IMG/VR virus record: IMGVR_UViG_3300014501_000882
Span: 1 to 33,368 of that record
Direction: 5' to 3' (one strand)
From: a virus
Length of the DNA: 33,368 nt
Below the pieces are notes generated by a model. It saw only the letters and a list, made by a program, of their open reading frames with translations. It was not told where the DNA came from and did not search any database. This document shows, piece after piece, positions 13,336 through 32,906 of the stretch (its first letter is position 1; each line of letters starts with the position of its first letter). The translations under genes were made by a program, and so were the position numbers.

Positions 13336-15264
13336 TCAACTTCTCCCGAACCAGTTACGCCGTGGCACCCAATCGTCAGCGCGATCAAAGGGCGCGGAAG
13401 TTCGTCCCTCGGCGGACCGTTCGGATTGCCCGGCCTGCGCCACGACCACCGCCGGAGGAATCGACTGCATCTCTTTTCGCCGCGAGCGCGCCATCTGCGC
13501 AAATCGATCGCAATACGCGTTCATCTTCAAACCGCTCGCGTAGAGCGCTTGCAGTGCGGCGTACGCATACACGCGGCAGTCGAGCGCCTCGTTCCGCGCG
13601 GCGGGAGGCTTGCGCCATTCCTGCTTGGGATAGCCGTGGTGATATCGAGTGAACTTCCGCTCTGCCGTGAGTTGATCGAAGTATTCCTGGTCGCGGCCGA
13701 TCGGGAAGTGACAATATCCCGGCCCGGCCTCCCTGATCTTCAGGCGGTCATACAGCGCCGTCTTCGCGGCGTCCACTCCGACCATGAAGAACGGCGTCTG
13801 GTTCTTCCGGCTGGGCTTTCGCGGCCAGATGGGAGACTCGCCCGCGCGTCCCTTCACGGCGTATACACGGCGCGCATAACGGTCGCGCGTGAACCGCAGC
13901 ACAGTGGCATCCTTGAACCCGCAATCGATGCACGCCGCAACGATTCGCAGCGGCTGACTGGAGTCGTGCATACACTCGGAGAGGAGCAATCCTTCGAGGT
14001 GATCCCAGACCTCCTTGCGCGTCACGTCGCCGGGGATCACATGATGCGCGATCGACCAGGACTCCTCGTCGCGCCCCCAGCCAACGATTTCCACCTCAAG
14101 CCGGTCGGCCTGCACGTCCACTCCCGCCGTGACCAGCGCGACTCCGTCCGGCGCCTCAGCTTCAAACGGCTCGCAGCGATTCCACAAGGCCCGCGCATCG
14201 GTCGGCACCTCGTGGTGCTCTTCCCACAACTCCGCGAGCACCGTGTTCATGAACGCCTTCAGGGTCTCGGGCGACTTCTTCGCCGCGATGAACTCGGTGG
14301 CGATCGAACCCCAGGCGCGCTTCAGTGAGACCAACTGCGAAATGCGAAAGCCCGGAATCGGCGACGCCGGATTCTGAGCGCGATACTCGCCACGCTCGAC
14401 CATCCACGCTTTCTCGTGCGCTGGAATCAACTCGCGGCACCCGGCGCAGCGGTACATGGCATCTTCGGGTTTCCCATCCGGCCACACCAAGCCAGGCCCC
14501 GTTCCGTCTCCGAGCACGAGCACCTGGTAGTTGCCGCACTTGGGACAGGGCACGAAGTAGTCGCGCTGGTCGCTTTCTTTCCACGCCAGCTCGATCCGGC
14601 TGATGCCCTTGATCGTCGGCGTGGACGCCATGACGATCTTCTTGTTGTGCTGGAACTCCGCGGTGCGCTGGACGGCGAGTGAAACCGGATCGCCCTCCGT
14701 GCCCGCACTCGCCGGGTAACGGTCCACCTCATCCAGGAGCGCGTAGCGGATCGGCCGCATAGCCAAACCCGATGGCGATATCGCCCCGGTGAACGTGATG
14801 TGCCCCGCGCCATTGACGAAAACCTTGTGCAGCGTCGTGTTGTTGGAGTCGCGCGACTTGACCGGCGCGATCTTCCCGCGCAAGCTCGGCGTGCTCTTGA
14901 ACATGGGCGCCACGCGGTCCTTCGAGAGCGCCTTGGCATCCTCCGTGCGCGGCTCCACCACCAGCACCGGCCCCGGATCGACGTCGGCGATGAAGCCGAG
15001 GAAGTTCAGCAGGACCTCGGTCTTCATCATCTGCGCCGCAGACAGCAACACCACTTGCCGGCACGGATGGCCGGGGCTGAGCACGTCCATCGGCTCGCGC
15101 TGGTAGTGGCGTGTGCGCCACTGGCCCCGCTCTGCCGCAGCGCCTCCGGTGAGGACGCGGTTCTCATCGGCCCACTGCGAGACCAGGATGTCTCGCGGCG
15201 GCAGCATCGCCGCTGCGCCGACTTCGTGAATGGAGAACGATTGCATCTTTTGGAACTCGCGCAA
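13336..15264 (-). CDS. terminase large subunit, GpA family
   Basis: 642 residues, the DNA-packaging motor and nuclease. The ATPase part has a variant P-loop SAAQMMKTE at residues 75-83 (Lys81) and Walker B YALLDEVD at 174-181. A zinc finger of the GpA type is formed by Cys240/Cys243 (CPKC) and Cys273/Cys276 (CAGC). The nuclease domain begins at about residue 375, with VTAGVDVQADRLEVEIVGWG carrying the first metal-binding aspartate (Asp383), and a later IDCG segment. The first codon is TTG at 15264; an ATG six codons in (15246) is an equal choice, and neither has a good Shine-Dalgarno. It follows the Nu1-like small subunit by 32 bases. Confidence 0.92.
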   Translation of the reverse strand: MREFQKMQSFSIHEVGAAAMLPPRDILVSQWADENRVLTGGAAAERGQWRTRHYQREPMDVLSPGHPCRQVVLLSAAQMMKTEVLLNFLGFIADVDPGPVLVVEPRTEDAKALSKDRVAPMFKSTPSLRGKIAPVKSRDSNNTTLHKVFVNGAGHITFTGAISPSGLAMRPIRYALLDEVDRYPASAGTEGDPVSLAVQRTAEFQHNKKIVMASTPTIKGISRIELAWKESDQRDYFVPCPKCGNYQVLVLGDGTGPGLVWPDGKPEDAMYRCAGCRELIPAHEKAWMVERGEYRAQNPASPIPGFRISQLVSLKRAWGSIATEFIAAKKSPETLKAFMNTVLAELWEEHHEVPTDARALWNRCEPFEAEAPDGVALVTAGVDVQADRLEVEIVGWGRDEESWSIAHHVIPGDVTRKEVWDHLEGLLLSECMHDSSQPLRIVAACIDCGFKDATVLRFTRDRYARRVYAVKGRAGESPIWPRKPSRKNQTPFFMVGVDAAKTALYDRLKIREAGPGYCHFPIGRDQEYFDQLTAERKFTRYHHGYPKQEWRKPPAARNEALDCRVYAYAALQALYASGLKMNAYCDRFAQMARSRRKEMQSIPPAVVVAQAGQSERSAEGRTSAPFDRADDWVPRRNWFGRS

Positions 15265-15296
15265 AACGGAGTGGGGCGCGCCGCACCCTGTGCGCT

Positions 15297-15815
15297 TTAC
15301 AGACCCGCGTCCGCGACTGCCTTGCTGACCTTCCGCAGCGCCGCCGAAACTTCGGCGACCAACATTCGATGAATCGCTTTCTCGTCATCCACCGCCGCGA
15401 GCATCGGCGCGAGGCGATCCGGCATGGCCATCAGACCGTCCTTGACGATCGAAGAAAACCCTGCGGCATACTCGGCCGCGCGCGCCGCCGGGATCAGTTT
15501 GCCGGCGCGCTCCTCATATTCCAGTTGGGCGGTCCGCGCCGCGAAGCTCTCCTTGACCGCCCGCGCCCTTAAGTACGCGGTGACCGGATCTCCCGATCCA
15601 GCCACGGACTCGTGCATCGGAAGCCGCTCCGGTGCGACGGCGGTTTCACGGATCGTCTGCCCCGCGAAGGTGTTCTTCGCCCACTCCCGGTTGGCGCGCT
15701 CCGCATCGATGGTCCCGTCCGCGAGCGTTGTAATCCGCTTGCCGGAGATCGCCTTCTGGACAGCGGTCAGGCTGCAACCGCGTATCCGCGCGTATTCCCT
15801 AAGCGAGACGCCCAT
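15297..15815 (-). CDS. terminase small subunit, Nu1-like DNA-binding protein
   Basis: 172 residues. The N-terminus MGVSLREYARIRGCSLTAVQ is a winged-helix/helix-turn-helix of the phage Nu1 type, continued by KAISGKRITTLADGTID and ANREW. A long helical region (AYLRARAVKESFAARTAQLEYEERAGKLIP) follows that would bind the large subunit and dimerise. It recognises the packaging site and delivers DNA to the large terminase. The ATG at 15815 was preferred to a start 35 codons upstream because the HTH normally begins at the N-terminus. The upstream 130 bp form the divergent region with the DUF3489 gene. Confidence 0.8.
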   Translation of the reverse strand: MGVSLREYARIRGCSLTAVQKAISGKRITTLADGTIDAERANREWAKNTFAGQTIRETAVAPERLPMHESVAGSGDPVTAYLRARAVKESFAARTAQLEYEERAGKLIPAARAAEYAAGFSSIVKDGLMAMPDRLAPMLAAVDDEKAIHRMLVAEVSAALRKVSKAVADAGL

Positions 15816-15947
15816 CACCGAACCTGTCCAACCTGGATAAAGGCATATTCTTTTTCTGAAGATTCCACTTGCATTCGGGTTCAAACGGAGTGATGAATCG
15901 TGGTGCGCGAAGACGCGCAAGCTACTGATCAGAAAGGATTAACTACC

Positions 15948-16355
15948 ATGACAGACAACACCACGACCACCAAAGCCGCCGCCGTTGCGGAACAGGGCGC
16001 CCACGTCGCGCCGGAGAAGGCCCCCTCGAAGAAGGGCGCCAGCCAGAAGAAGGGCGCGCCCAAGGGCCAGAAAACCGCCAAGGGTGCCAAAGCCAAGGCC
16101 GCCGCGCCGAAGAAGCAAGCCAAGGCCGCCCCCGCGAAGAAGACCAGCGCGCCACGCGCCGAAAGCAAAGGCGCGAAAATCCTGGCGATGATTGGACGGG
16201 CCAAGGGCGCGACTCTTGCCGAGATTATGAAGGAGACATCTTGGCAGGCTCATAGCGTGCGCGGGTTCATCTCCATCGCCGCCAAGAAGCACAGCGTCAA
16301 CATCGAGTCCTCGAAAAACGAAGCCGGCGACCGCGTTTACAAAGTCACCAAATAG
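15948..16355 (+). CDS. DUF3489 domain protein with basic Ala/Lys/Pro tail
   Basis: 135 residues. The first 75 are a low-complexity Lys/Ala/Pro-rich region resembling histone H1 tails (KKGAPKGQKTAKGAKAKAAA). The last 60 form a DUF3489 domain: SKGAKILAMIGRAKGATLAE, then TSWQAHSVRGFIS and DRVYKVTK, a predicted winged helix. Such proteins are common on phages and mobile elements and probably bind DNA. The start ATG has AAAGGA nine bases upstream; a GTG at 15900 in the same frame lacks a comparable site. It is transcribed against the neighbouring packaging genes and ends before a GC-rich hairpin. Confidence 0.75.
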   Translation: MTDNTTTTKAAAVAEQGAHVAPEKAPSKKGASQKKGAPKGQKTAKGAKAKAAAPKKQAKAAPAKKTSAPRAESKGAKILAMIGRAKGATLAEIMKETSWQAHSVRGFISIAAKKHSVNIESSKNEAGDRVYKVTK

Positions 16356-16378
16356 AACTTCCCACCTGCCTCACCAAG

Positions 16379-16408
16379 CCGCCGCCGGGTTCAACGATCC
16401 GGCGGCGG
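16379..16408 (+). terminator. GC-rich hairpin, likely terminator of the DUF3489 gene
   Basis: CCGCCGCCGG (16379-16388) and CCGGCGGCGG (16399-16408) form a perfect 10-bp stem with a 10-nt loop, 23 bases after the DUF3489 stop. It is followed by TTCTG and not by a long T run, so termination may be partial. The stem also lies within the 3' end of the degenerate ORF on the other strand. Confidence 0.5.
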
Positions 16409-16541
16409 TTCTGCATCTGCTTCCAGAATCCTCAACTCCGCAGACCAGTCCGAGAGCGCCAGGCAGAGCCCCTTGCAGATCGGGATGCCCCGAAAGGATC
16501 AGCGATTCTATTTCCGCGACCTCGCGGTAGCAGCGGGCGAT
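16391..16541 (-). pseudogene. degenerate or frameshifted 50-aa ORF downstream of the methyltransferase
   Basis: Directly after the methyltransferase stop, one frame reads IARCYREVAEIESLILSG then HPDLQG. At a GGGG run (minus strand) coding character switches to another frame, LCLALSDWSAELRILEAD, ending at a TGA at 16391-16393. Removing one G of the run joins the two parts. An ATG overlapping the methyltransferase stop is also out of frame by one base: removing an A from ATGAATC gives MIARCYREV. Two single-base changes would therefore restore a compact gene. It is either a decayed phage gene or contains sequencing indels. Function is unknown. Confidence 0.45.
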
Positions 16542-17891
16542 TCATGACGCGCTCCCCATGCGTTCAGCTTTCACCTGCTCAAACGTGCGGCCATCGCCAT
16601 CGAGCGTGGCCTGCTCGCCGGATAGCGATTGCCAGCGGAGGATCGCAACGTCCACGTACTTTGGATCGAGTTCCATTCCGCAGAAGACGCGCTCGGTCAA
16701 CTCGGCAGCAGCGAGCGTCGTTCCGCTTCCGAGGAACGCGTCGTACACCAACTCGCCGGTTCGAAGGTGATTCAGGATCGGGCGCCGCATCAGCGCGACG
16801 GGCTTTTGCGTTGGATGGTCGAACTTCTCCTCGCCCGAGCCGCCCATGATGAACTTCGGGCTGGGCGAATCCCAGATCGTCGAGTTTTCACCTGGCTTGC
16901 CGAACCACGGCGCGTTTTTCTTTCGGACGTACCAGCAGGGTTCATGCTGGAACCAGTAGTGCGTGCGCGTCAGCACGGTCCGCTGCTTATTCCATATGAT
17001 TTGCTGGTGATGCAGAAAGCCAATGCGCAGCAGGCCGGCGAGCACCTCGGACGTAAACTTCGATGCGTGAAACACGTAGGCGACCTCGAGGCTCGGCACA
17101 AGCGCGAAAGCATCCGACCAGTCGGCCCGCGTGTCGCCCGAGATCGTCGTCTCGGTGTGCCCTTCGGTGCGATGCTTCAGATACGACGGCTCGGCTGGTC
17201 CGCAGCCATTGAGTCCAGCGCGGTCACGCCATTCTGAATCAAGCTCGATGCCGTATGGCGGATCGGTGACCATCAGAAGCGGTTTGCGCTCGCCGAGGAG
17301 CTTGGCGACAGCTTCAGCAGACGTGGCATCGGAGCAAAGCACCCGGTGTTGATGGGGCGGATTGCCGCAAACCCACAGGTCGCCCGGCCGCGTGACTGGC
17401 TCGGCTGGCGGCTCCGAAACCACGTCCTCTTCCGCGCTGGCTTCGTCCGCCGGATACAGATACGCGTTCAATTCTTCCTGGTCGAACCCGGTCAACGCCA
17501 GATCGAAATCGACATCGAGTTCCTGGATGCTCTGGAGTTCCGGCCCGAGCAGATCCAGATTCCACGTCGCCTCGTCGTGGCTGCGGTTATCCATCAACCT
17601 GTACGCCCGCACTTGGCTGGGCGTGAGATCGTGCGCCACGTGAACGGGAACCTCGCCCAGCCCCATTGACTGCGCGGCCAGTAGCCGCACGTGGCCAACC
17701 ACGATCACGCCGTCGGCATCCACCACGATCGGCTGCCGCCACCCGTAGGCTCGAATTGAGGAGGCGACCTTCTCGATCGCGGACGGCGGAATCACCCTGG
17801 CGTTGTTCGGATATGGCTTCACGCGGCCAGTCTTCCGCCACTCGATGGCGAACGTCTGGGTCTCGGGTTTGATCTGTTTGGGGAGCTTCAT
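16542..17891 (-). CDS. ParB-domain DNA methyltransferase (phage-encoded)
   Basis: 449 residues. The N-terminal 110 are a ParB/Srx-like domain (YPNNARVIPPSAIEKVASSI, then VVGHVRLLAAQSMGL and YRLMDNRSHDEA). The methyltransferase part carries TDPPYG at residues 209-214 (catalytic motif IV) and later DAFLGSGTT at 384-392 (SAM-binding motif I). This beta-type order is typical of N6-adenine or N4-cytosine enzymes. It modifies DNA, probably protecting phage DNA from host restriction or marking it for regulation. The start is the Met of MKLPKQIKPE; the longer frame to 17987 runs through a hairpin. Ten bases upstream lies a 12-bp inverted repeat, a likely control element. Confidence 0.88.
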   Translation of the reverse strand: MKLPKQIKPETQTFAIEWRKTGRVKPYPNNARVIPPSAIEKVASSIRAYGWRQPIVVDADGVIVVGHVRLLAAQSMGLGEVPVHVAHDLTPSQVRAYRLMDNRSHDEATWNLDLLGPELQSIQELDVDFDLALTGFDQEELNAYLYPADEASAEEDVVSEPPAEPVTRPGDLWVCGNPPHQHRVLCSDATSAEAVAKLLGERKPLLMVTDPPYGIELDSEWRDRAGLNGCGPAEPSYLKHRTEGHTETTISGDTRADWSDAFALVPSLEVAYVFHASKFTSEVLAGLLRIGFLHHQQIIWNKQRTVLTRTHYWFQHEPCWYVRKKNAPWFGKPGENSTIWDSPSPKFIMGGSGEEKFDHPTQKPVALMRRPILNHLRTGELVYDAFLGSGTTLAAAELTERVFCGMELDPKYVDVAILRWQSLSGEQATLDGDGRTFEQVKAERMGSAS

Positions 17892-17900
17892 CTGATTTGG

Positions 17901-17990
17901 GGGGTGACAACCTGGGATTTCGAGGTTGTCACCCAGGCTGGGTCGAAGAATCAATGGCTTAGGTGCCCGACAACCGGGGGGTGACAACCT
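17901..17990. promoter_or_regulatory. three copies of GGGTGACAACCT forming hairpin/operator before the methyltransferase
   Basis: GGGTGACAACCT occurs near 17902-17913, its exact reverse complement AGGTTGTCACCC at 17923-17934, and a third copy in the first orientation at 17979-17990. The first pair forms a perfect 12-bp inverted repeat with a 9-nt spacer that ends ten bases before the methyltransferase ATG. It can be a dimer-binding operator in DNA or a hairpin in the 5' leader that hides the ribosome binding site. No consensus Shine-Dalgarno is seen. The third copy argues for a DNA-binding protein. Confidence 0.6.
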
Positions 17991-18249: not shown

Positions 18250-18624
18250 TCAGCTTGTTCGGTGGTCGGTACTGGCCGCTTCGGGCGTGGCCGATCGCGC
18301 CATGCAACCGCTAACGACGCTCAGGAAGATGCCACGCGTTTCCGGTGGCGCAAGGGTCGAATCGGAGCGCCCACCTTGCAGCGGTCGGAGCTTCCAACAG
18401 TGATGCCCGTCTGCGAGCGGTTGCTCGAACGAGTATGCGCTGCCTTGATAGTCTCGCGCCGTGGACGGAAGGGGATCGTCCGGGCGGCGATAGAAGACGA
18501 CTCGGTTGATGTGCCCCTTGTGGCGCACCACTTTCGCAAGCCCACAATCCTCTAAGCGCAGCGCACGTTTGTCGCTGATGAAATCCAGCAGAGCAAGATC
18601 TGATGAGTAGAGCGGAACGGACAT
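18250..18624 (-). CDS. small prophage protein of unknown function
   Basis: 124 residues beginning MSVPLYSSDLALLDFISDKR and containing CGLAKVVRHKGHINRVVFYR and DYQGSAYSFEQPLADGHHCW. AGAGG stands seven bases before the ATG. The first 95 residues look like a folded, strand-rich protein; the last 30 are Ser/Thr/Ala-rich and may be read into non-conserved sequence. It is the first gene after the attachment region on the prophage side and is transcribed toward the methyltransferase. I do not recognise the family. The 260 bp between it and the methyltransferase leader hold no gene I can support. Confidence 0.5.
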   Translation of the reverse strand: MSVPLYSSDLALLDFISDKRALRLEDCGLAKVVRHKGHINRVVFYRRPDDPLPSTARDYQGSAYSFEQPLADGHHCWKLRPLQGGRSDSTLAPPETRGIFLSVVSGCMARSATPEAASTDHRTS

Positions 18625-18958: not shown

Positions 18959-19052
18959 ATGGCTACCACGGCCACCATGGATACCAAGCGATTCAGAATT
19001 CAACGGTTCGTGAGAAGACGATGGCTACCACGGGAGTGGTGCCAGTGGTGCC
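18959..19052. repeat. direct repeats near the attachment core
   Basis: ATGGCTACCACGG occurs at 18959-18971 and 19021-19033, 62 bp apart, and AGTGGTGCC is present twice in tandem at 19035-19052. They stand immediately left of the decamer pair and could be further recombinase or excisionase sites. Confidence 0.5.
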
Positions 19053-19089: not shown

Positions 19090-19360
19090 TTGGACTCCAT
19101 TTGGACTCCAGTGATGCTTGTTTTGGGCGGGAATTCCCCGTAAGTCTATGACGGTAGTGGTGGCCAGGGACGGAATCGAACCGCCGACGCCAGCCTTTTC
19201 AGGGCTGTCGGATCAATCACTTACAAAGCACTCTCTCGCGGTTTCATGGAGTTACGGGCGTTTGATTTGGACTCCATTTGGACGCCAGACGCCATCTCTA
19301 TCGAGGTTGGACTCCACTCGGACTCCACTTTTCGAGGGGTGTTGGACTCCACCAGACTCC
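19090..19360. repeat. paired TTGGACTCCA decamers flanking the tRNA core (integrase arm-type sites)
   Basis: Exact copies at 19090-19099, 19101-19110, 19267-19276, 19307-19316 and 19342-19351. One-mismatch copies lie at 19278-19287 and 19318-19327, and a weaker partner near 19353. In each pair the second copy starts exactly 11 bp after the first, one helical turn, on the same face of the DNA. One pair lies left and three pairs right of the tRNA-Phe fragment, all in the same orientation. This is the arrangement of arm-type sites bound by the N-terminal domain of tyrosine integrases around a crossover core. Confidence 0.65.
19158..19207 (-). other. 3' half of tRNA-Phe(GAA): attachment-site core
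   Basis: On the minus strand the segment folds as an anticodon arm (stem CAGCC/GGCTG, loop CTGAAAA with anticodon GAA), a 5-nt variable loop, a T arm (GGCGG-TTCGATT-CCGTC, one G-U pair), the 3' acceptor strand CCTGGCC, discriminator A and encoded CCA. No D arm or 5' acceptor strand (GGCCAGG) follows upstream, so this is not a working gene. Such 3' fragments are the usual trace of integration into a tRNA gene. By orientation, an intact tRNA-Phe should lie to the right, beyond the window, if the element carrying the defence genes integrated there. Confidence 0.8.
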
Positions 19361-19561: not shown

Positions 19562-22264
19562 TTACCATGCTTCCGACAACCTCTCAAGGACATCCTTTCT
19601 CGCCAAAACGCGGGAGCATAGCTCCCATCGATCCTTGTTGGGGTCGATTGTTTCCTTGTATCGGAGTTCGAACACGTCCCGGGCTTTCTGGCGCAGATGG
19701 ATGAACTGGTCCATCATCGTCTCCAGCCTCTCCACACTTTCGATCCACTCATCTTCGATGGTATCGGGCAGGCCCCCAAAGATGTCGAACTTGTCCTTCA
19801 GCCGGCGTGAAATCACCTGGTAGACCTGTTCGTCCTGGGTATCGTGATAAACGAGATTCAGCATGTCCACGGTCCGGCGAGCCTGACCAAAGCGCTTGAT
19901 ACGTCCCAGTCGCTGCTCCAGCCGAGAAGGATTCCAGGGCAGATCCACGTTGATGAGCGTGCCGAGCGTTTGTAAGTTGAGACCTTCGCACGCGGCATCG
20001 GTGGCGATCACCAGACGAATCTCCCGATGCTTAACGGCCTTCTTGATGCTCTCGCGCTCCACTGAGGCGAAGGAATCACCTCTGAATATTCCGCTCTTGC
20101 CCGCACCAGCATAAACCGCAATCGGTTCGCCAGTCAGAATACCGGCCAACTCAGAGGCGATCCAACGCACCGTGTCATAGTACTGACTGAAAACGATGCA
20201 GCCGTGCTCCAGCCAAGTCTTGCCTTCCGTGCGGTGTTCCATCAGGAAGTACTTGACCGCCGCCAACTTCGGATCGCGCGCTTCCGGCCGCGACAACTCT
20301 TCTATGATGGTCCGCAGGCTGGTAATTTCCACCGACGTCAGGTCCGCTACGACTTCCGCGAGAACCCGCGCGTCCTCTTCCTCTTCGGGAACGTCGCCAT
20401 GTAGAAGCTTATCGGCGGTGGAGCGACCGGATGCAAAGCTGGAACAAATCCGTTGGAGCAGAAGCGTTCTCATGAAGCCGGCCCCCTGTTTGCGCTTTTG
20501 CAACGCGTCTGTGAAATCTTCCGCCGCTTGATAGGCCAGATCAAAGGGGTGGTTGGTGCGTAACCCCAATCCGTCAAACCCGACTCCGGGATATGTCGCG
20601 CCGGAGTTTGGGTCAGGGTGGACCGCTACCGCTGTGGGTTCCAGCAGACCTGCTTCTTCGAGCGTCTTGCGGTGCCGCAATACGGTATGCCGGAGAATGG
20701 GGTTGTGTTCTCGGTAGAAACCAGGGGTCAGCGTCCCCAGCAAGACTTGCCGCTCGAAGTACCCAAGCGAACCGAAACCCTTGTCCGTGAAGAATGAATT
20801 GTCGGAAACGCCGAGTTGAAGGCGTAAGCTGGCGAAGTTGGGATTCTCGTCTCCCGGAGGCAGAGGATTGCGCAGCCACTCCCAGGACGCGCGCTCGTCG
20901 GAGGGAATTTCGTCGCCGCGCACAACGGGGAGGGCGCGCCGCCAGTCAGTCCAATTGCTGAGTGCCGGGCGGCCCAAGACGAAATCGATTCCGGAATTCA
21001 AAATACTCATTAGGTCCCAAACCTCGGAAACCTGGGTTTGAATCGGCGTCGCGGTGCCCAGCAGGATGTGTTTGGTGCGCGGACCTATGCGGAGCATGAA
21101 GTCCAACAGGTTATTGGGCTCGTCCTTTCGCTCTCCCAAACCGCCGCGCCGACGGGCCTTGTGGGCTTCATCCAACACCACCGTTCCGTACCTGCGATCC
21201 AGAAGGTGTTGGCGCTCCTCGGAGTCGTGGAAGATCAGCCCCGTCGAGACGATCGCGATCCGGAAGGGACATCGAACGATGTCCTCGGGACCGCGAGTCT
21301 TGATGATGTGTTCATTCTGGTCCTGCCAGACCTTCTTGTTCGAAATCCAAACCGCGCTGGGGACTCCGAGCCTGTCTTTGAGTTCCACCTGCCATTGAAA
21401 GGTAAGAGTGGACGGGCAGAGAATGAGCACGGGACCGTCATCCAGCAGAGCGGCGAGCATGGCGCTGGCCGCTAGGGACAGGGTCTTGCCAACGCCCACC
21501 TCATCTGCCAGTAGCAGCCGCGCTCTTCCATAGGTCTGCCGATGCTTCAAAAAAATGGTGACGAAAGAACGCTGCCATGGCTGGAGCTCTTCGCCGCCCC
21601 GATAGATCGGACTTTCAGCTAGGGCCGCGGCCGCCAGTTCGGTCTGATCCACTTCTCGGAATGCGAGTTCCACCCGATCGGCGACGCGCTTGATTTCTTC
21701 GATGATGGCATCGGGCAGCGGGAATGAGTCCTTCCAAAGCGCCTCGAACTCTTCCTCGACCCACTTCACGCCCTCTGGCGAGGTGTCCTCCCAGAGAATC
21801 TCGTAGTTTGCCGCGAAGGCGCTTTTTGTTTCGTTTATTGAACCAAGGAAACAGGTCTTGGCGCCGTCCGCGCCCTCAATTACGCCCGCCTTTCCGTGGA
21901 CAAATACCTGGTCCTTGGCGACCACGCGGATCTGGACCCGGCCACTGCTCAGCAGTTCATAGAGCCGCCGATACCGGTCGCGATAAAGCAGCGCTTCGAC
22001 TTCTGCAGGTGCCTGGTTCCAGCGTTCCTTGAGGGCAGTCTCGCGGACGTGCTTCGAAACGGTGACATCCGCTGCGTCCAGTTCGCTGTTGCAAACGATC
22101 CGGACATCCGCGATGCTGGCAATCTCCTCGCCGACCAGTTCAAAGATCGAGCTGCGGAAATAGCCGGCGATTCGAATATAGGACTTTGCCCCTTTGAGCC
22201 GTTTGGCGAGAAAGGCGTGATCGAGCCGCCTCCGGCGAGAGGAGAAACGGTTGATGTCGGCCAT
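19562..22264 (-). CDS. PLD-SNF2 helicase of the DUF499/DUF1156 defence system
   Basis: 900 residues. An N-terminal phospholipase D-like domain (about 15-190) shows one HxKx4E motif (H-G-K-A-G-V-I-E, residues 123-130), followed by CFLGSINETKSAF. A SNF2-type helicase follows: LLLADEVGVGKT (Lys260), DEAH at 365-368, LLGTATP near 404, then the second RecA half with ATDAACEGLNLQ and PSRLEQRLGRIKRFGQ (about 780-793). It probably translocates on DNA and recognises or cuts invading DNA. The start at 22264 was chosen for AAGGAG seven bases upstream, seven codons inside the longest frame. It is the last gene of the defence operon, 17 bases after the DUF1156 stop. One PLD motif implies dimerisation if the domain is catalytic. 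Confidence 0.9.
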   Translation of the reverse strand: MADINRFSSRRRRLDHAFLAKRLKGAKSYIRIAGYFRSSIFELVGEEIASIADVRIVCNSELDAADVTVSKHVRETALKERWNQAPAEVEALLYRDRYRRLYELLSSGRVQIRVVAKDQVFVHGKAGVIEGADGAKTCFLGSINETKSAFAANYEILWEDTSPEGVKWVEEEFEALWKDSFPLPDAIIEEIKRVADRVELAFREVDQTELAAAALAESPIYRGGEELQPWQRSFVTIFLKHRQTYGRARLLLADEVGVGKTLSLAASAMLAALLDDGPVLILCPSTLTFQWQVELKDRLGVPSAVWISNKKVWQDQNEHIIKTRGPEDIVRCPFRIAIVSTGLIFHDSEERQHLLDRRYGTVVLDEAHKARRRGGLGERKDEPNNLLDFMLRIGPRTKHILLGTATPIQTQVSEVWDLMSILNSGIDFVLGRPALSNWTDWRRALPVVRGDEIPSDERASWEWLRNPLPPGDENPNFASLRLQLGVSDNSFFTDKGFGSLGYFERQVLLGTLTPGFYREHNPILRHTVLRHRKTLEEAGLLEPTAVAVHPDPNSGATYPGVGFDGLGLRTNHPFDLAYQAAEDFTDALQKRKQGAGFMRTLLLQRICSSFASGRSTADKLLHGDVPEEEEDARVLAEVVADLTSVEITSLRTIIEELSRPEARDPKLAAVKYFLMEHRTEGKTWLEHGCIVFSQYYDTVRWIASELAGILTGEPIAVYAGAGKSGIFRGDSFASVERESIKKAVKHREIRLVIATDAACEGLNLQTLGTLINVDLPWNPSRLEQRLGRIKRFGQARRTVDMLNLVYHDTQDEQVYQVISRRLKDKFDIFGGLPDTIEDEWIESVERLETMMDQFIHLRQKARDVFELRYKETIDPNKDRWELCSRVLARKDVLERLSEAW

Positions 22265-22281
22265 GCATGATCTCCTTGATC

Positions 22282-25200
22282 TCAACCCAGCCGTTGGTTC
22301 TTCACTAGGTCCCGCAGAACGCGCGCGGAACTGGCTTCTTCGGGGCGAAGCGTTTCCAGCTTTTTCGCCAGATAGTCCGCAAGCCCTACAACAAGGTCGC
22401 GCTGATTCTGGTTGGAATAATAGTCCGTTACATTGAACGTGAGGTGGGCGAGCACATCTCCACCGTCCACATCTTTTACCAGCTCCATAAGTGCGTAGAG
22501 AGTGGCACGAAGGACGGATTGATGAAGCTCAGAGCCTTCTGCCATTTCGCTCTTGCCAAATTCAGCCGCGCTTTTGAGCCGCGCTTGGTTGGCCTTTTCG
22601 CTGGCCATGAGGGCGCGGAAGTTCCGCACCTTGAACGCCTTCGCAAAGTTCTGGTAGTTGTCGAGAGTTTTGAATCCCTTTGCCTCCAAGTCGAGGAGCT
22701 TTAGGTAAAACCGCTCGGCCCCAGTGAGCCGATCCCAATGTGCGCTGGGGATGCCTCCCGGCACGAGGCATTGGTTTGCGGTGTCAACGGCGAAAGCGAT
22801 CAGGGTATCTACAAAAGTGACTTCACCTTTGACTCTCGGCCGTATTGCCTCAAGGGTCATATCACGGCCGTCAATCGTTGCGTAGCGGGTGAGGACCCGC
22901 AACGCCGCGGCGTAACCTGCCATTTGGACGTCGGCATCCTCGAAGACGTTCTCATCCCGGTACAGCCCCTTAGCATCCTGGTTGAGGCCGGTTAGGGAAT
23001 GGACCTGCTCTCTTACTTCTTCCTGGATTTCCCAGGCGAGGTCATCGCGCGTGGTCTTGAGCGATCCCGCCCGTTTTCGGAGAACCAGCAGAACCGTGCC
23101 TTTCACGTTATTACCCTGACGCAAGGCGCTCTCGGTCTCTGTGACCACATACCAGGCAGCGGTGACTCGCAGACCAGAGGCCCACACGATGTTTGCCATG
23201 TCGGCCCAAATGCTCCCAGACTGGTGGGTAAACATGATGACTTGAATACCGTTGGCCGGCATGCATTCTGCCATTCGCTTGTAGGCAGCGACCATGCCAC
23301 GACGGAAGTCCTCGTCCTCACCCTTAATTGCTAGTGAACGGCGGCTGTCCCAGATCCAATTCGCGAACTCGGGCGGCGGGTTCTTGCGCAGCCAACCAAT
23401 AAAGAACTCCAGAATCTCCTCGTACTTCACTGCGTCGCCATAAGGCGGGTCGGTTACGAAGATGTCTGACACTTCCGCCAGGGCGCTCGCCGGGTGGCTA
23501 CCGATCGTGAGCGATAGCCCTGGGTGGAGCGGATAAGACTTCAATCGGAGATTGACAAGATCAAGGGCAAAGCGAGATCCGCGAACACCGTAATTAAATA
23601 ATGTATTCAGCGCTTGATTGTCGAAGGTCCCTTTCACCCCACCTGTCCTGTTGTCCCCGTCACCTAGGCTCCAACGAGTGAGGCGCGAACTGGAGTTCAG
23701 CACTTGTGCCAAGCTCAATTTCAGTGGCGCACCAGCGTACCTATTAACAAGCCCGGCCACCAACAACTGCCGCGCGCTGAACAAGTGATGCCAGTAGGTC
23801 CATCCTCTCGTCCGGATTGGTTCATCGGTCTTGTCACCTGGCTCGATGCGCATGTCCGGCAGCCAGCCCTTGACCTGCCAGTCGGCGAGGTTGTCGGCAA
23901 TGAAATCATCTACTACTTTTTCCCGCTTCAGATCATCATCGGTTATCGAGCGGAACTCATAATCGTCGGTCTTGCGGTTCGCCTTGGGCCGCATCCACTG
24001 GATGCAGTACAACCGCTCTTGGAACAGATCGTCAGGCCGGGGCTTGAAGTCTTGTTTTTCCCACTGCCGCAAGTGATTGCCTGTTTCGCCGTCATCTTTT
24101 CGATAGTCGCCGCGCAGCGTCGAAATCTTGGTTCGATATTCCGTGCCATTTACTGTGTGGACGAGATACGGATCCTGGCCACGGCCATCCGTCCTTACAG
24201 TGCCCTGAGCGGCGGCCGCCAGTTCCGTTTCCGTCACCCCGGATCGGACGACGATCTCGTAGCGCTTGTGTAGGGCATCCGGAACCAATTCAACAATAGT
24301 GCGGTATCCCTTGCTCACCATCCGGGTCGGCAGGAGAGGAACCAGCCAGCCGCCACTCTGCTGGCAGCGCGCTTCCACACAATAAAGGAATACCTTGGCC
24401 CGCCAGCCCTCGCCGTCGACCTCCACTCCAAGTTGGTCGATTTCAGCATGTACTCGCCGCAGAAGGTCATCCTGCTCGCCCTTGAGCGTGTCGTGGCTCT
24501 CCTTGGTTGTTCCTACAATGTTGAGGGCACCCCACGTGAGCATGCAGGCCACGGGGCTGAGGTCTGAGGCATAGACGTCGCAACCGAGCCGCGCTGCCTC
24601 GAACGGGATCTGGCCGGAGCCGCAGAACGTGTCTGCAACGCGAGGACGGTGACCGTAGCGCATGAAGCCAAGCTGCTCGACGAGTTGTGGAAACGACTGA
24701 GCCTGAGTGCCTAGATGGGCATTGACTGCTTCCCAGATATGATCATGGACAGAGTCCATGACCTCCTCAGGACGTTGTGCCTGATCTACACGCTCCCGGT
24801 ACGGTGCTTTCGGGAGCATCTGCGCCTCTAGGCGGCGACGCTCCAGTTCTGGAAGGTCCTCGCGCCACGCGACACGCACGCCATCGTAAATAGGCTGGGA
24901 CCAATCCACCGGTCCAATAGCTGGCAATATTCCCTCAGGCTCCGAGGTGAAGTAAGCGGCGACGTCCGCAATGGAGAGGGTTCCGAGAATTTCCTTCGGT
25001 TTCGGTCGTCGCTTCCAGCGGATGACGAACGACTCGTCATCCATCGCCATCAACTTCTCGAAGATCTCCAAATCACGCGCCCTATCCTGGGTCGCCGGCA
25101 TTAGACTGCCGAGGATACAAGCCTTGGCTAGGATGAGCGGCTTCCGGCCTTTCCAGTAGCTCCCAAGTGCGGTGAGGGTCTTACCCTGCACAGCCATCTG

Positions 25201-25299
25201 CTCTTTGTAGGCCTCGGAGGAAAGTTTTTGCACGGGCAGCAGGCACTCAATAAGCGCAGGTGTGTCCTTGAGAGAAAAAGGCGTTACGGATTTCTTCAC
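22282..25299 (-). CDS. DUF1156 adenine-specific DNA methyltransferase, anti-phage-associated
   Basis: 1005 residues. It belongs to the large COG1743/DUF1156 methyltransferase type. The N-terminal DUF1156 part has SLKDTPALIECLLPVQKLSS and SYWKGRKPLILAKACILGSL. SAM motif ADTFCGSGQIPFEAARLGCD lies near residue 222 and the catalytic VTDPPYGDAVKYEE near 615. The zinc-ribbon segment (YCVEARCQQSGGWLVPLLPT) keeps only part of its usual cysteines. The start GTG at 25299 overlaps the DUF3780 stop as GTGA; the open frame runs 39 codons further but inside DUF3780. It is expected to mark self DNA in the defence system, while the ATPase and helicase act on unmodified DNA. Confidence 0.9.
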   Translation of the reverse strand: MKKSVTPFSLKDTPALIECLLPVQKLSSEAYKEQMAVQGKTLTALGSYWKGRKPLILAKACILGSLMPATQDRARDLEIFEKLMAMDDESFVIRWKRRPKPKEILGTLSIADVAAYFTSEPEGILPAIGPVDWSQPIYDGVRVAWREDLPELERRRLEAQMLPKAPYRERVDQAQRPEEVMDSVHDHIWEAVNAHLGTQAQSFPQLVEQLGFMRYGHRPRVADTFCGSGQIPFEAARLGCDVYASDLSPVACMLTWGALNIVGTTKESHDTLKGEQDDLLRRVHAEIDQLGVEVDGEGWRAKVFLYCVEARCQQSGGWLVPLLPTRMVSKGYRTIVELVPDALHKRYEIVVRSGVTETELAAAAQGTVRTDGRGQDPYLVHTVNGTEYRTKISTLRGDYRKDDGETGNHLRQWEKQDFKPRPDDLFQERLYCIQWMRPKANRKTDDYEFRSITDDDLKREKVVDDFIADNLADWQVKGWLPDMRIEPGDKTDEPIRTRGWTYWHHLFSARQLLVAGLVNRYAGAPLKLSLAQVLNSSSRLTRWSLGDGDNRTGGVKGTFDNQALNTLFNYGVRGSRFALDLVNLRLKSYPLHPGLSLTIGSHPASALAEVSDIFVTDPPYGDAVKYEEILEFFIGWLRKNPPPEFANWIWDSRRSLAIKGEDEDFRRGMVAAYKRMAECMPANGIQVIMFTHQSGSIWADMANIVWASGLRVTAAWYVVTETESALRQGNNVKGTVLLVLRKRAGSLKTTRDDLAWEIQEEVREQVHSLTGLNQDAKGLYRDENVFEDADVQMAGYAAALRVLTRYATIDGRDMTLEAIRPRVKGEVTFVDTLIAFAVDTANQCLVPGGIPSAHWDRLTGAERFYLKLLDLEAKGFKTLDNYQNFAKAFKVRNFRALMASEKANQARLKSAAEFGKSEMAEGSELHQSVLRATLYALMELVKDVDGGDVLAHLTFNVTDYYSNQNQRDLVVGLADYLAKKLETLRPEEASSARVLRDLVKNQRLG

Positions 25300-25871
25300 T
25301 GGTTGGTCTCGAACAATGACAGGGTCGTGATATCGTTCTCGATCGGACGGCGGCGTTTCCGGTTCGCGGGTGGCTTCTCGCCGTCGGACAGTGCGAAAAA
25401 CAGAGCGCGCCGCCAACCACGCTGCGCGTCATCTGGCAGACCCGCCTCCGCGACGGTCATAGAGAAAAGCCACCAGCGTTCTTCGGCGCGTAGCGCGGCC
25501 CATTTGTTGCAGATCACAGAAATCTGGTCTGGGGTAGCCGTTTCGGCGGCCCAAGCAAGAACACAGAGTTCCTTGCCGAGAAGACGATCCACCAGATTGG
25601 TACCGGCGTGCCAACGGCCCGTCGAGACTTTGGCAGCTCTCAGCCGCTCATTAAACTCGCGACGAGCAGTATCCGCTATCCCCGACCAAACCGAGCGTGC
25701 TAGGATGGCCCGCTCCTCGTCGCGCGGAATGCCGCCTTCGAGGCCGCGATAACCGTAGTCCTCGATAATGTAAACGGACTCAGTCTTCGAAGGCGGGATT
25801 TCGACGCGAATCACATGGGCACCAAAATCCGTTGAGGCACCAAAGTCCACGGTCTTGATGGGCTCACTCAC
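25296..25871 (-). CDS. DUF3780 protein, anti-phage-associated
   Basis: 191 residues matching the DUF3780 family found only beside DUF499 and DUF1156 genes. Recognisable parts are GAHVIRVEIPPSKTESVYI, WSGIADTARREFNERLRA, the core LGKELCVLAWAAE, and PDQISVICNKWAALRAEERWW. The C-terminus is basic (PPANRKRRRP). The biochemical role is unknown; it may join methyltransferase and ATPase. The GTG start overlaps the DUF499 stop as GTGA, and its own stop overlaps the DUF1156 start in the same way, so the three are translated as a coupled series. Confidence 0.88.
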   Translation of the reverse strand: MSEPIKTVDFGASTDFGAHVIRVEIPPSKTESVYIIEDYGYRGLEGGIPRDEERAILARSVWSGIADTARREFNERLRAAKVSTGRWHAGTNLVDRLLGKELCVLAWAAETATPDQISVICNKWAALRAEERWWLFSMTVAEAGLPDDAQRGWRRALFFALSDGEKPPANRKRRRPIENDITTLSLFETNQ

Positions 25872-28800
25872 TGCTCCACGTCTCCGGTCTGGAGTTCGAT
25901 TCCGAGCTTGGCCGCGAATTCCTTGAGGTCATGCCCGGAGGGAAAATTTGCCCTACGGAAGGTCATAGTGACTGGTGTCGCCGGCTCGAACTTCTCCAAC
26001 ACCAGCTTAAGAATCGCTTCGATGAAGGCTCCGTCCACCTTGATCTCGTGGACCATGACCTGGACAGCTTGAGCATCCTTACCGATCGTAAGTGCGACGT
26101 TCTCAAAGGTGGCTGATTTTTCGACCGCTTGTTTCAAGCCATCAAAAGTTTTGGCGCGTGAGTCGAGCTTCCGGCCCGTGCGGGATACGATCCGTCCTGG
26201 CTTGACTTCGTCAATCTGCACTCCCTTCTTGCCTATCGCAGGCCAGCGAAAATCTTCCTTCGCTTCAAGGCCGGAGGCCTCCGCGAAAACGCGTAGGATC
26301 ACGTCACCATCGCCAATCTCGACAGGATTCTGGTATGGAATACCCTCGCGCGGTTCCGCGCCATCGAGCGTGTAGCGAATGTTTCCCTTGGGAGCCACGA
26401 ATAGTTCGACCGCCCTGGTCCCGTTATTTTCGTGCAGATAGTTGCGGAGAACGAGCTTGTTCGACCAGGTCGCCACATCCCCGGTCTCGTACTGGCTGGA
26501 TGGGTCGACTACTAAAAAAGTCACGCGAAGAGCGTTTGTGAGGAGTGTCTGATCTTTAATCTGCGGGCTTGCGTCGGATACCGTTGCGTCCTCGGCATAG
26601 TGGATGCGGGGCGCCGGTCCGGCATTTTGGGGATTGATGCGGAGCCGGACCTGTCCGCTGTCATCCGGCCCGGACTCGACGATGACCTGAACGGAGGTTG
26701 TTTTCTTCTTGGGCCGCCTGGTGATATAGCCGTTGCTCAGATCCTCCCACAAGCCGCGGTTGCACGCTATCGCCTTCAGAGTTTCAAGACCTTTCGGAGG
26801 CAACCATGGCATTCCTGACTGTTCGGAGTATCGGTCGACTACGTCGGCCCAGCGCGCATCGTCCTGGTTTTCCGGCCAAAGAAGATCCTGCGCCTTATCG
26901 CAAATCGGGTCGAAGTCTTTTTCTACATCGAGGTAGAGCTTCAAGGGATTCGAAGTAAGGGTCTTCTCGATCTGGTTCTCTCCGTCAAACGCTTTTGTGG
27001 AATCGCGGGTCATGTCCAGCGGCTTGTTGGCAAGTTGCGCCGCCTTGCCGGCGCGCTGGATCGGAAAAAGGACTTTGTCGAAAAGGTTCAGAACCGTGGC
27101 GTTGAAGTCTTGCTCGTAAGTTTGTTGCTTGCGCTCCAGGTCTTCGCGCTGGGGGTGCCCTTTGGGTATGCGTCCATCGGCTTTCTGGGCGGCATAGAGT
27201 TGCCGCGCAGCTTTCTCAACGCTAGCCATCGCGGTCTTATCGCCTGTAAGGACGCAGAGGTTGTTTTTCTGACTCAGCCCGTCGAAGAACTTCTGCACTT
27301 CCTCCGGCGGAATCTTAGAATCGGGGCTGACGATCAGAAGTACTCGCCCTCTGCGGACGCGGTCGGCCACGTCCTCAAGACGAGGCAGTGGGAGTACTTC
27401 ATCATAGGCCGCCTTCCGGCTGGGTTTGAACATCGACGCAAGGCGGTGGCGAATGAGATCATCCACCTGATTCTCGGGAGCATCGTGGGCCAGACTCTGC
27501 AAGAGCTTGGTGAGGTTCTCCTGGCGATCGAAGTAGTAGCGCCCCTCCGGAGTGTGGTGAATGTACCAGGCCACCTTCTCCAACTCATCGAAAGCCGAGA
27601 GGAAATCCGAAGCATCGCGGAGCGGCGAAACCAGGCACTCGACCATCTCCTCCCGAGTGAGCCCCTTAACGGCATTTACAGCAGTGGAAAGGCTGGAAGT
27701 CAAGAGCAACGAACCGACCTGGGTCGCGGCCTCCTGACCGGACTTGAGATCCACGACTTGTGCGTGAGCCGAGGAGTTACCATCCCACAAGTCTTTCGCG
27801 ATGACATCGCGCATGCCTGAAATCTCGGTAAGTTTGTCGCGCACCTCCTGGATGGAGAGGTCGAAATGCTGGGGGCCGATTAGGAAGACATCGTTAGATT
27901 TGCGTTCCCAAACGGAGCGGAGAAGGCGGGACACCAATTCGATCAGGCCGCGCGTTTGCTTGAACTGCTCGTTTTCCTTGAACAGCGCGACAACATTCTT
28001 GAGACGTGGGTGGAAAGGATAGGTAGCTGCGATCTCGTCGGCGATCGCTTCGGCGCCACGGTTGGCCACTTTTGACTTGCTGGCCTCCTCCAGTTTTTTG
28101 CCGTAGGAAGCGGCGATGTCCGCCCTCTCTGCAGTGTCGGGCAACGATTTAAAGAGCCGCTTGCGGAGGATGTCGTAGATCTCATTGGAGGCAAGGTCAA
28201 CGGGCGTGATGTTCCGCTCCTGCCGACCTAATTCCTGCCGAGCATCCTCCAGTGCTCGGTTGATGAGTCGAGTGCCCGTGTCATATGTCGCGGCGAGATC
28301 TGAAACCACCACGCAGACATTACTCTTCTTCCCGGCTGCCGTCAATAGATTCGCGAACGCCCGGGTCGCGATATCGGCAACAGTGCCGTTTCCTACCTTC
28401 TGAGTATCCAGGTAATGAAAATATGGCGGCATCTCGTCGAACAGGATCAAGATAGGCTCGCCGCCGTCGAAGAGTTGCAGCCAATCCTTTTCGTCCGGTG
28501 CCTTGGGGCCGCTGGTCCAGAAGGATTTGAACTGCTCGCCTTTGCCCAGTTGGCCGGCGATCTCGCCCCAAAAAAAGTGATCCGGGTTGTTGCGTCCGTT
28601 GAATGCTGCGGTCCTGGCGCTCCCAAACGCTGATCCGTAGAGTGTTCCTCCGCAGTACCTCTTCCGAAGTTCAGGATGCTTGGCGAGAAGGCCAAAACCG
28701 ACAAGCAGGTGGGTCTTGCCGCCACCCATGGCCTGCTTCAAATGAAAGATGGCTTGCGCGGATGCCCCGGCGAGGCGTGCAACTCCCTCGCTAATGAGAT

Positions 28801-28951
28801 CCTGCATGCCCTGTGTAATCTTGGTCTTGTCGAAGAACTCAGCCCCATCGCCCTCGGCTGTGATCAACTGGTCGAGTTGCTCGATCTGATCGCTGAGCTT
28901 GATCGAAAGCGCATTGGGCTGGAGTTCGCAAGCATCTCGGACAGTCTTCAC
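25868..28951 (-). CDS. DUF499 AAA-type ATPase, anti-phage-associated
   Basis: 1027 residues of the COG1483/DUF499 type. The N-terminus has FFDKTKITQGMQDLISEGVA, then the P-loop QAMGGGKTH (Lys79) and Walker B ILILFDEMPPYFHYL (Asp172, Glu173). A middle region, RRGRVLLIVSPDSKIPPEEV, is followed by VLFPIQRAGK. The C-terminal 300 residues are beta-rich (NIRYTLDGAEPREG, then VILRVFAEASG), like chitobiase-type CHB_HEX repeats that often bind partners. It is probably the energy-driven sensor or loader of the system. The GTG start overlaps the stop of a 33-aa ORF (GTGA) and has GGAG eight bases upstream. Confidence 0.9.
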   Translation of the reverse strand: MKTVRDACELQPNALSIKLSDQIEQLDQLITAEGDGAEFFDKTKITQGMQDLISEGVARLAGASAQAIFHLKQAMGGGKTHLLVGFGLLAKHPELRKRYCGGTLYGSAFGSARTAAFNGRNNPDHFFWGEIAGQLGKGEQFKSFWTSGPKAPDEKDWLQLFDGGEPILILFDEMPPYFHYLDTQKVGNGTVADIATRAFANLLTAAGKKSNVCVVVSDLAATYDTGTRLINRALEDARQELGRQERNITPVDLASNEIYDILRKRLFKSLPDTAERADIAASYGKKLEEASKSKVANRGAEAIADEIAATYPFHPRLKNVVALFKENEQFKQTRGLIELVSRLLRSVWERKSNDVFLIGPQHFDLSIQEVRDKLTEISGMRDVIAKDLWDGNSSAHAQVVDLKSGQEAATQVGSLLLTSSLSTAVNAVKGLTREEMVECLVSPLRDASDFLSAFDELEKVAWYIHHTPEGRYYFDRQENLTKLLQSLAHDAPENQVDDLIRHRLASMFKPSRKAAYDEVLPLPRLEDVADRVRRGRVLLIVSPDSKIPPEEVQKFFDGLSQKNNLCVLTGDKTAMASVEKAARQLYAAQKADGRIPKGHPQREDLERKQQTYEQDFNATVLNLFDKVLFPIQRAGKAAQLANKPLDMTRDSTKAFDGENQIEKTLTSNPLKLYLDVEKDFDPICDKAQDLLWPENQDDARWADVVDRYSEQSGMPWLPPKGLETLKAIACNRGLWEDLSNGYITRRPKKKTTSVQVIVESGPDDSGQVRLRINPQNAGPAPRIHYAEDATVSDASPQIKDQTLLTNALRVTFLVVDPSSQYETGDVATWSNKLVLRNYLHENNGTRAVELFVAPKGNIRYTLDGAEPREGIPYQNPVEIGDGDVILRVFAEASGLEAKEDFRWPAIGKKGVQIDEVKPGRIVSRTGRKLDSRAKTFDGLKQAVEKSATFENVALTIGKDAQAVQVMVHEIKVDGAFIEAILKLVLEKFEPATPVTMTFRRANFPSGHDLKEFAAKLGIELQTGDVEQ

Positions 28952-29049
28952 GTTTCGTTCTCCGTGGGAATTATAAGGGTAACCTGCACAGGCTCCCCGA
29001 ACATGGGGCCGCGTGCGTTGATGTTGGGTTTCAGGTCTCTTGGATTCAT
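28948..29049 (-). CDS. 33-aa protein at the head of the defence operon
   Basis: A very short gene reading MNPRDLKPNINARGPMFGEP, then VQVTLIIPTENET. Its stop overlaps the DUF499 GTG as GTGA, the same junction used by the next two gene pairs. Its ATG stands ten bases after the HTH gene stop, with AGGA about ten bases upstream. The pattern 'LKPN...RGPMFGEPVQVTLIIP' resembles the small beta-barrel opening of some helicases in DISARM-like systems, which suggests a detached domain that binds a partner. That similarity is from memory and unproven. It could also act only as a leader that couples translation into DUF499. Confidence 0.6.
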   Translation of the reverse strand: MNPRDLKPNINARGPMFGEPVQVTLIIPTENET

Positions 29050-29059
29050 CCTGGAATTC

Positions 29060-29308
29060 CTACCTGCTCTTCCGCCGTCGAGGCATTTCGCCGACGGCGC
29101 TGGGGATGTTGGCAGGTCCGCCGCCTCTCACCCATGCGTCCACCTCTGACAACTTGCACTTCCACAGACGACCGACTCGATGGGCCGGCAACGCCTTGTT
29201 CTCGATCCAGCGGTACACAGTATCAGCGGCGACCCCCAAGTGTGCGGCGACTTCGTTCACGGAGTACCAACGCAACTCGCCGGATGGGTTGCTGCCTGAA
29301 ATCGACAT
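29060..29308 (-). CDS. helix-turn-helix (HTH_17/excisionase-type) regulator of the defence operon
   Basis: 82 residues with a MerR/excisionase-type winged helix: WYSVNEVAAHLGVAADTVYR, then WIENKALPAHRVGRLWKCKL and SEVDAWVRGG. It has a short polar N-terminus and a basic C-terminus (PRRRKSR). The start at MSISGSNPSG was chosen because the HTH begins soon after; 13 more upstream codons are possible and neither start has a clear Shine-Dalgarno. As first gene of the operon it likely controls it, or assists the recombination of the element. Its 5' side faces the divergent 724-aa gene over 216 bp. Confidence 0.75.
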   Translation of the reverse strand: MSISGSNPSGELRWYSVNEVAAHLGVAADTVYRWIENKALPAHRVGRLWKCKLSEVDAWVRGGGPANIPSAVGEMPRRRKSR

Positions 29309-29524
29309 CGATCGACTATTGTGGCAGAAAATCGGAAAGAAGTGCATTCGGATAATGCGCTCTTGGACCCATACCTCCGTAGCCCGGCGCGCTTGGTAGT
29401 GCTCATGGCGTTCTGGTAATCTAGCGGGCGAGCCGCCCTAGCTCCTGTCTGATCAACCGGAGCGAAGGCTGGGAACCCTGCCCAGGGGCGGCTACTTCGT
29501 GTTTGGGGAGTCGCAAAGGGAGCG

Positions 29525-32030: not shown

Positions 32031-32906
32031 ATGCCTGAAAGAACCGACCTCGCTGATCGTATCGCCGTCTTTGGTGGTACCAGCAGATCACTCCTTCAGG
32101 AGATCCCCAACGAAGCGGCGGCTGCATCCCGCCGCCTCAGTCGCGATCTGCTGAGTGCGGCAGCGACATTGACCGTCAAGGAAGCCAGGTATCTGGTAAA
32201 CGCGTACTTCGCCATGCAGGAAGGCCGGGCGGCTGCAGGGAATCAGATCCGAGCACTTTCCCAGACCGATCAGCCGCACGCCGTGATCGCGTGGCTCCAT
32301 AGTCAGAACGCGACCGTCGAGAAGCAAATCATGAGGGCGCTGGATGCATGGAGCGACTCAATTCCGATCGCGCACTGGGCCAAGGGTGTGGGCATAGCGC
32401 CCGTGATCGCGGCAGGCCTCTCGGCACACATCGATATGGGGCGCTGTCCAACCGTGGGACACATCTGGCGGTTCGCCGGCCTCGACCCCACGCAGGAGCG
32501 GCAGAAGGGAACGAGGTGCCCGTGGAACGCCGATCTCAAGGCGCTCTGCTCAAAGATCGGTGAGTCCTTTGAGAGACCCGGAAACGACAGCGATTTCTAC
32601 AGGCGGTTGTATCTGCAGCGTCAGGCACAGGAGGCGGCGGCGAACGATGCCGGAAAGTTCGTGGAGCAAGCGCAGCGCAAGCTGGAGCACTTCAAACTCA
32701 CCGGAAATACCGATGCGCGCACGTCGTACTCGCTAGGTAAGCTCCCGCCAACTCATGTCCATGCGCGCGCCAGGCGTTGGGTCGTGAAGCTTTTTCTGTC
32801 CCATTACCACGAGGTCGCCCTACGGCTCGCAGGCCAGGCACCGGTGAAACCTTTCGGCACCGCGATCCTAAGCGGTACTCACTACATTGCGCCGCCGAAC
32901 TTCTGA
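32031..32906 (+). CDS. protein with IS110/IS116-type HhH region, catalytic domain not seen
   Basis: 291 residues. The centre (about 120-165) reads WAKGVGIAPVIAAGLSAHID, then HIWRFAGLDPTQ, the helix-hairpin-helix-like pattern of the C-terminal Transposase_20 domain of IS110-family enzymes. The N-terminal 110 residues are helical and do not show the DEDD nuclease motif expected of an IS110 transposase. No insertion-sequence ends are visible around the gene. It therefore looks like a domesticated relative serving the element, perhaps in DNA branch binding. It lies between the excisionase-like gene and a small ORF ahead of the primase. AGGAG is about 12 bases before the ATG. Confidence 0.6.
   Translation: MPERTDLADRIAVFGGTSRSLLQEIPNEAAAASRRLSRDLLSAAATLTVKEARYLVNAYFAMQEGRAAAGNQIRALSQTDQPHAVIAWLHSQNATVEKQIMRALDAWSDSIPIAHWAKGVGIAPVIAAGLSAHIDMGRCPTVGHIWRFAGLDPTQERQKGTRCPWNADLKALCSKIGESFERPGNDSDFYRRLYLQRQAQEAAANDAGKFVEQAQRKLEHFKLTGNTDARTSYSLGKLPPTHVHARARRWVVKLFLSHYHEVALRLAGQAPVKPFGTAILSGTHYIAPPNF

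Follow-up and report, generated by a model that had tools for sequence, protein, structure and literature searches.

A candidate lambda-type attachment site with paired arm-type decamers around a tRNA-Phe core in a putative Bryobacterales phage

The attP site of phage lambda, organised as P-H-COC′-H′-P′, carries arm sites on both sides of its core, with IHF-type sites between the arms and the core. Paired or tripled direct arm sites have been described for mycobacteriophages, and in the tRNA-targeting phage Pixie a pair lies on the left and three sites lie on the right (PMC3203893). The cluster K phages CrimD and Pixie, as well as L5 and Giles, have such paired direct repeats around a core derived from a tRNA gene. 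The attP of the conjugative element ICEMlSymR7A (integrase IntS) holds five arm-type sites within 283 bp (PMC11963761), and a reference cited in that paper gives phe-tRNA as the target. Finally, tRNA-dependent lysogeny has been described by Guerrero-Bustamante and Hatfull in 2024 (PMC10865867).

The locus described here lies in what we call the window, the whole 33,368-nucleotide stretch of viral DNA that was analysed (IMG/VR record IMGVR_UViG_3300014501_000882; this 33-kb record only). On sequence comparison, and with a rough probability of 0.88, we read the locus as a complete attachment site of the lambda type (POP′, attP-type), belonging to a temperate phage that infects Bryobacterales, soil Acidobacteriota, and would insert into the host's tRNA-Phe gene. 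Like lambda attP, it has arm sites on two sides and IHF-type sites between arms and core, but it differs in its tRNA target, its arm sequence, the 11-bp phasing of its arm pairs and the lack of an integrase gene within the window. With the mycobacteriophage sites it shares paired direct arm repeats around a tRNA-derived core, so the pair design, which a preliminary description of the locus had called unusual, has clear precedent; what sets it apart from them is its sequence, the host phylum, the IHF-like sites and an arm code common to four tRNA targets. ICEMlSymR7A likewise combines multiple arm-type sites in attP with a phe-tRNA target, but its arm consensus (TGKTGGTATC) is unrelated in sequence, and it is a conjugative element rather than a phage. 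As far as our tools reach, the arm code, its use at four tRNA targets and a group of elements that split tRNA-Val while supplying a replacement copy are new.

The decamer TTGGACTCCA occurs on the plus strand in five exact copies, starting at 19090, 19101, 19267, 19307 and 19342 and all lying within 270 bp; two more plus-strand copies, at 19278 and 19318, have one mismatch each. Both these counts and the arrangement in pairs with a start-to-start period of 11 bp, one pair to the left and three to the right of a tRNA-Phe fragment, bear out the preliminary description, with the amendment that the last member is degenerate: the eighth decamer retains GACTCC alone (19355–19360), 10 bp after the previous GACTCC. 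ARAGORN found no intact tRNA in the window. The part of tRNA-Phe(GAA) that lies between the left and right pairs is identical, at 44 of 44 nucleotides, to the 3′ half of an intact tRNA-Phe at a related prophage end (L004). The features of the putative site are as follows.

19090–19110, plus strand: P-arm pair, two exact decamers, in the same position as the single pair of left-type prophage ends
19140–19152, minus strand: left IHF-like site GTAAGTCTATGAC, a weaker match than the left sites of relatives
19158–19207, minus strand: 3′ part of tRNA-Phe(GAA), the core identity block, running from the CCA end into the anticodon stem, as far as its 5′ side
19191–19207, no strand assigned: anticodon stem-loop, in which a 7-nt loop is enclosed by a 5-bp inverted repeat; core-type sites and the overlap region probably lie here
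19212–19224, plus strand: right IHF-like site (H′) ATCAATCACTTAC
19267–19287, plus strand: P′-arm pair 1
19307–19327, plus strand: P′-arm pair 2
19342–19360, plus strand: P′-arm pair 3, second member degenerate

Immediately to the left of the P arm there is also a 13-bp direct repeat (ATGGCTACCACGG; 18959–19033), whose copies are 62 bp apart; the left ends of relatives have different short repeats in its place.

The five exact decamers compare with 0.047 expected under a first-order Markov model of the window (both strands, 33 kb). No other, unrelated 10-mer occurs three or more times within 300 bp anywhere in the window, and the decamer is not enriched in the window outside the site. In the genomes of relatives, the pair pattern matched 35 times across 19 genomes and 55 times across 24; reading the pattern backwards as a control gave 0 and 1 matches, respectively. 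Because these genomes were picked for holding a pair, these counts show rarity rather than prevalence. The pair is largely restricted to Bryobacterales. The preliminary description had named, as the finding that would speak against it, a decamer common throughout the genome and unrelated to integrases, or one belonging to an unrelated repeat family; we reject the reading as a genome-wide repeat family because the pair is rare, with each genome containing between one and five matches, and because the reversed pattern yields almost none. Pattern matches in contigs of Bacteroidales, Thiotrichaceae, Thiodictyon and Myxococcales have no nearby tRNA and look like chance. A literature search for the decamer returned matches from unrelated fields only, and blastn of the site found nothing but a tRNA-Phe gene among phage records and no match among plasmids.

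Among viral contigs, two relatives matched with exact pairs. One, L004, is the end of a related prophage, in which 73 bp separate the pair from an intact tRNA-Phe; beyond the tRNA lies a gene that on reading its sequence we take to be a host fumarase; the other, L005, is a related prophage adjoining tRNA-Val. A scan of viral contigs for additional Phe-type sites yielded none. Scanning one genome per species gave 58 loci, the majority of them in Bryobacterales or other Acidobacteria. In 31 loci of this set, the window included, the pair flanks a tRNA or a fragment of one, always on the same side, and its spacing from the tRNA 3′ end is 46–50 bp in 28 and 72–73 bp in 3. The targets are tRNA-Ala(GGC), tRNA-Pro(GGG), tRNA-Val(GAC) and tRNA-Phe(GAA). 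The link to tRNA-Phe suggested by the preliminary description stands insofar as the pairs do occur at tRNA-Phe, but it is not exclusive, because the arm code is shared by at least four tRNA targets.

The ends found in this way are of two kinds. Left-type ends have one pair and, in most cases, an intact tRNA. At right-type ends, a displaced fragment from the 3′ part of the tRNA is accompanied by the 13-mer ATCAATCACTTAC and by two or three pairs. Pairs at both ends were found on one contig in three genomes, 13.6 kb apart in G002, 14.3 kb in G016 and 37.6 kb in G015. When Phe-type sites are aligned, the window follows the left-type ends until the anticodon stem and the right-type ends from the anticodon arm onward, and it therefore has the joined form, POP′; the block gacgccagccttttcagggctg is common to both kinds of end and to the window. 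In relatives, the identity of the core to the bacterial target is seen split across both ends of integrated elements, and in the window arm-type repeats are present on both sides of the core. The two shorter spans (L065 in G002 and L066 in G016) are short elements between P and P′ ends. Near P′, none of the small number of proteins checked is a phage gene, and these elements may be satellites or islands that exploit the sites of the phage.

IHF recognises the consensus WATCAANNNNTTR, and the 13-mers flanking the core fit this consensus in inverted orientation. The right site has 0–1 mismatch in 11 of 16 scored junctions; of the five exceptions, four (L022, L034, L053, L061) are in fact left-type ends that had been misclassified as fragments, and among true right-type junctions the figure is 11 of 12. 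For the left site, a single mismatch was counted in 19 of 31 cases, and about 1% of random stretches match the consensus equally well. By consensus, then, IHF-type bend sites are present between core and arms, with the window's left one weak, and we infer that IHF or HU would occupy them.

As the preliminary description had anticipated, no integrase was found in the 33-kb window. Whole genomes of relatives were searched with PF00589 and then with the L069 integrase (434 amino acids) as family query, and the latter search revealed one tyrosine integrase family on their arm-bearing contigs. The distance from arms to integrase varies: the gene lies 82 bp past the last arm site in L092, about 0.4 kb away in L081, 1.5 kb in L101, 2.1 kb in L069, 5 kb in G033 and G035, and 9–10 kb in G001 and G010. 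In G047, where the gene occupies positions 10001–11245 of L097 on a contig that itself carries these arms, the distance is about 2.3 kb. The protein matches the Pfam family Phage_integrase, and its conserved residues R256, K290, H360, R363, H386 and Y395 (L092 numbering) are taken for the catalytic set. In a structure model of modest confidence (mean pLDDT 67.8), the N-terminal domain is predicted to have three strands and one helix, and Foldseek matches the model to full-length lambda integrase; the relatives' integrase would thus share the lambda fold together with an N-terminal domain of the arm-binding type. Most integrase relatives found by protein alone, G045 among them, have no decamer pairs on their contigs, so that either the arm code is not family-wide or the pairs lie beyond those contigs.

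In the mechanism that we propose, the N-terminal domain of the tyrosine integrase would bind the decamers, IHF or HU would bend the DNA, and the integrase would then bridge arm and core. Strand exchange would probably take place within the 22-bp anticodon arm, as the point at which left- and right-type ends diverge suggests, and insertion would consequently leave the tRNA whole. That the pairs are arm-type sites of a tyrosine integrase, the central proposal of the preliminary description, is supported by a search for them beside tRNA and integrase genes, which revealed fixed spacing from the tRNA, placement at both element ends and contigs shared with the integrase family; binding itself is predicted from these patterns.

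Two other roles for the pairs have to be weighed against this one. Direct repeats at one-turn spacing are typical of replication-origin iterons and of repressor operators, and the decamers could, in principle, be either. Such elements would not account for repeats that are divided between both ends of the element and distance-locked to tRNA 3′ ends, and this explanation seems very improbable. Alternatively, the pairs could be bound chiefly by another factor, an excisionase or a regulator, with the integrase using sites that we did not recognise. In the attP of the rhizobial element, the excision factor RdfS binds near arm sites (PMC11963761), and some integrase relatives are without pairs, both of which would fit such a role. 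Yet the pairs are in both arms at all junctions, where they are the sole repeated sites seen, and the integrase has a predicted domain of the arm-binding type that needs such sites; we regard this second role, too, as unlikely.

The window may represent either phage DNA or a junction between integrated prophages, a question on which the genes flanking the site bear.

13336–17987, minus strand: phage genes for packaging, next to the P arm: both terminase subunits (large and small) and ParB/DNA methylase
18250–18624, minus strand: small ORF without a family match, conserved in related prophages at their P end
19562–29347, minus strand: defence-type operon by the P′ arms (PLD helicase, DUF1156 methylase, DUF3780, DUF499, HTH), context outside the attachment site
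32960–33367, plus strand: ORF cut by the right edge; in relatives, its homologues precede the integrase by about 3.5 kb

The right-edge ORF has no family match, and 'primase' as its name is a guess of ours. In nine relatives its homologues lie 3.4–3.6 kb (once 4.3 kb) upstream of the integrase on the same strand, and the window's integrase is accordingly predicted near 36.5 kb on the plus strand, about 3 kb beyond the right edge. The closest relative, G045, has 70–88% DNA identity to the window's structural module and 80–89% to its right-edge module, and on one 41.7-kb contig, which ends before the expected arm position, it carries relatives of both window flanks together with an integrase. 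This is how the two flanks should be arranged if they were parts of a single phage genome, the size of which we estimate at roughly 50 kb. Beside the right-edge ORF lies a transposase-like gene (phrog_4285; 32031–32906), which is conserved there in several relatives and so may belong to the phage's resident genes and not to an insertion sequence.

We lean toward free or concatemeric phage DNA as the source of the window, and consider this somewhat probable. The competing explanation, in which the site is the junction of two different elements integrated in tandem at tRNA-Phe, with arms that come from different elements and the same mechanism, falls somewhat short of even odds. Just such an arrangement exists at tRNA-Ala in G047 (L097, L106, L107), an 85.6-kb viral contig with two related prophages in tandem at 0.6–60.1 kb. 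There, an intact tRNA-Ala with a P arm lies at 0.6–0.7 kb and a POP′ junction at 60 kb, delimiting a 59-kb prophage, and the second element, behind the junction, begins with 2.4 kb that are 96.5% identical to the start of the first. Bacterial assemblies, too, contain POP′ sites (L016, L041, L054, L092). Against two different elements, G045 unites relatives of both flanks on a single contig, as one phage genome would, although its layout is still compatible with two tandem copies of one phage. The right-edge ORF is directed away from P′ in the window, opposite to its direction in G047, L070 and L071, which weighs against our main reading. We dropped this as a sign of two elements, as in G045 the module is likewise inverted and adjoins the same structural module. 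In a separate observation, a type I restriction-modification system lies between the P′ arms and the integrase in L070 (12832–17919); the segment adjoining P′ seems to take up defence genes, with two cases (the window and L070) being too few for a rule.

The relatives at tRNA-Val constitute a side finding that may matter more than the attachment site itself. With the same arm code, these elements have the 5′ half of tRNA-Val(GAC) on the P′ side (L112, L032) and the 3′ half on the P side (L036, L042, L025), the two ends of one element being read from different contigs. An intact tRNA-Val lies immediately behind the P′ arms. The Val-type positions are 478–554 in L112, 12016–12092 in L076, and 355–431 and 3929–4005 in L093. 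In G033, a pattern search found two tRNA-Val(GAC) 5′ parts, corresponding to the split host gene and the intact copy borne by the element, and additionally one tRNA-Val with loop CAC; this is a draft genome, from which a further copy may be missing. Insertion of these elements fails to rebuild the tRNA, and they carry the cognate tRNA gene, so that they look like a case of tRNA-dependent lysogeny as defined earlier (PMC10865867), here in Acidobacteriota hosts and with tRNA-Val directly behind the P′ arms. The window's Phe site is not of this type, as it would restore its tRNA.

In a broader reading, to which we give about even odds, a single integrase family would keep its arm code and bend sites constant while its core is switched among Phe, Ala, Pro and Val targets, with the Val branch representing tRNA-dependent lysogeny outside Actinobacteria. 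Across eight arm-linked integrases, the core-binding domain is the one that differs most from target to target: its mean identity is 40% between targets and 71% within them, compared with 57% and 69% for the arm-binding domain, and one Ala/Val comparison retains 67% in the core-binding domain; with so few sequences, phylogeny confounds the comparison of the two domains. The arm sites are tied here to a defined integrase family in Bryobacterales, in a natural series in which arm recognition is fixed while tRNA targets vary, and the Val elements suggest that tRNA-dependent lysogeny reaches Acidobacteriota. The combination of decamer pairs, IHF-like 13-mers and tRNA spacing also provides a sequence rule by which prophage and island ends can be recognised in Bryobacterales genomes. 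A more distant case is seen in L104 and L109, where a 30%-identical integrase lies beside other paired repeats, of the GTCCCGTTTYGTCCCA type, together with the same GTAAGTGATTGAT and a tRNA-Val fragment despite the different repeats, as though the integrase and its arm code had diverged in step.
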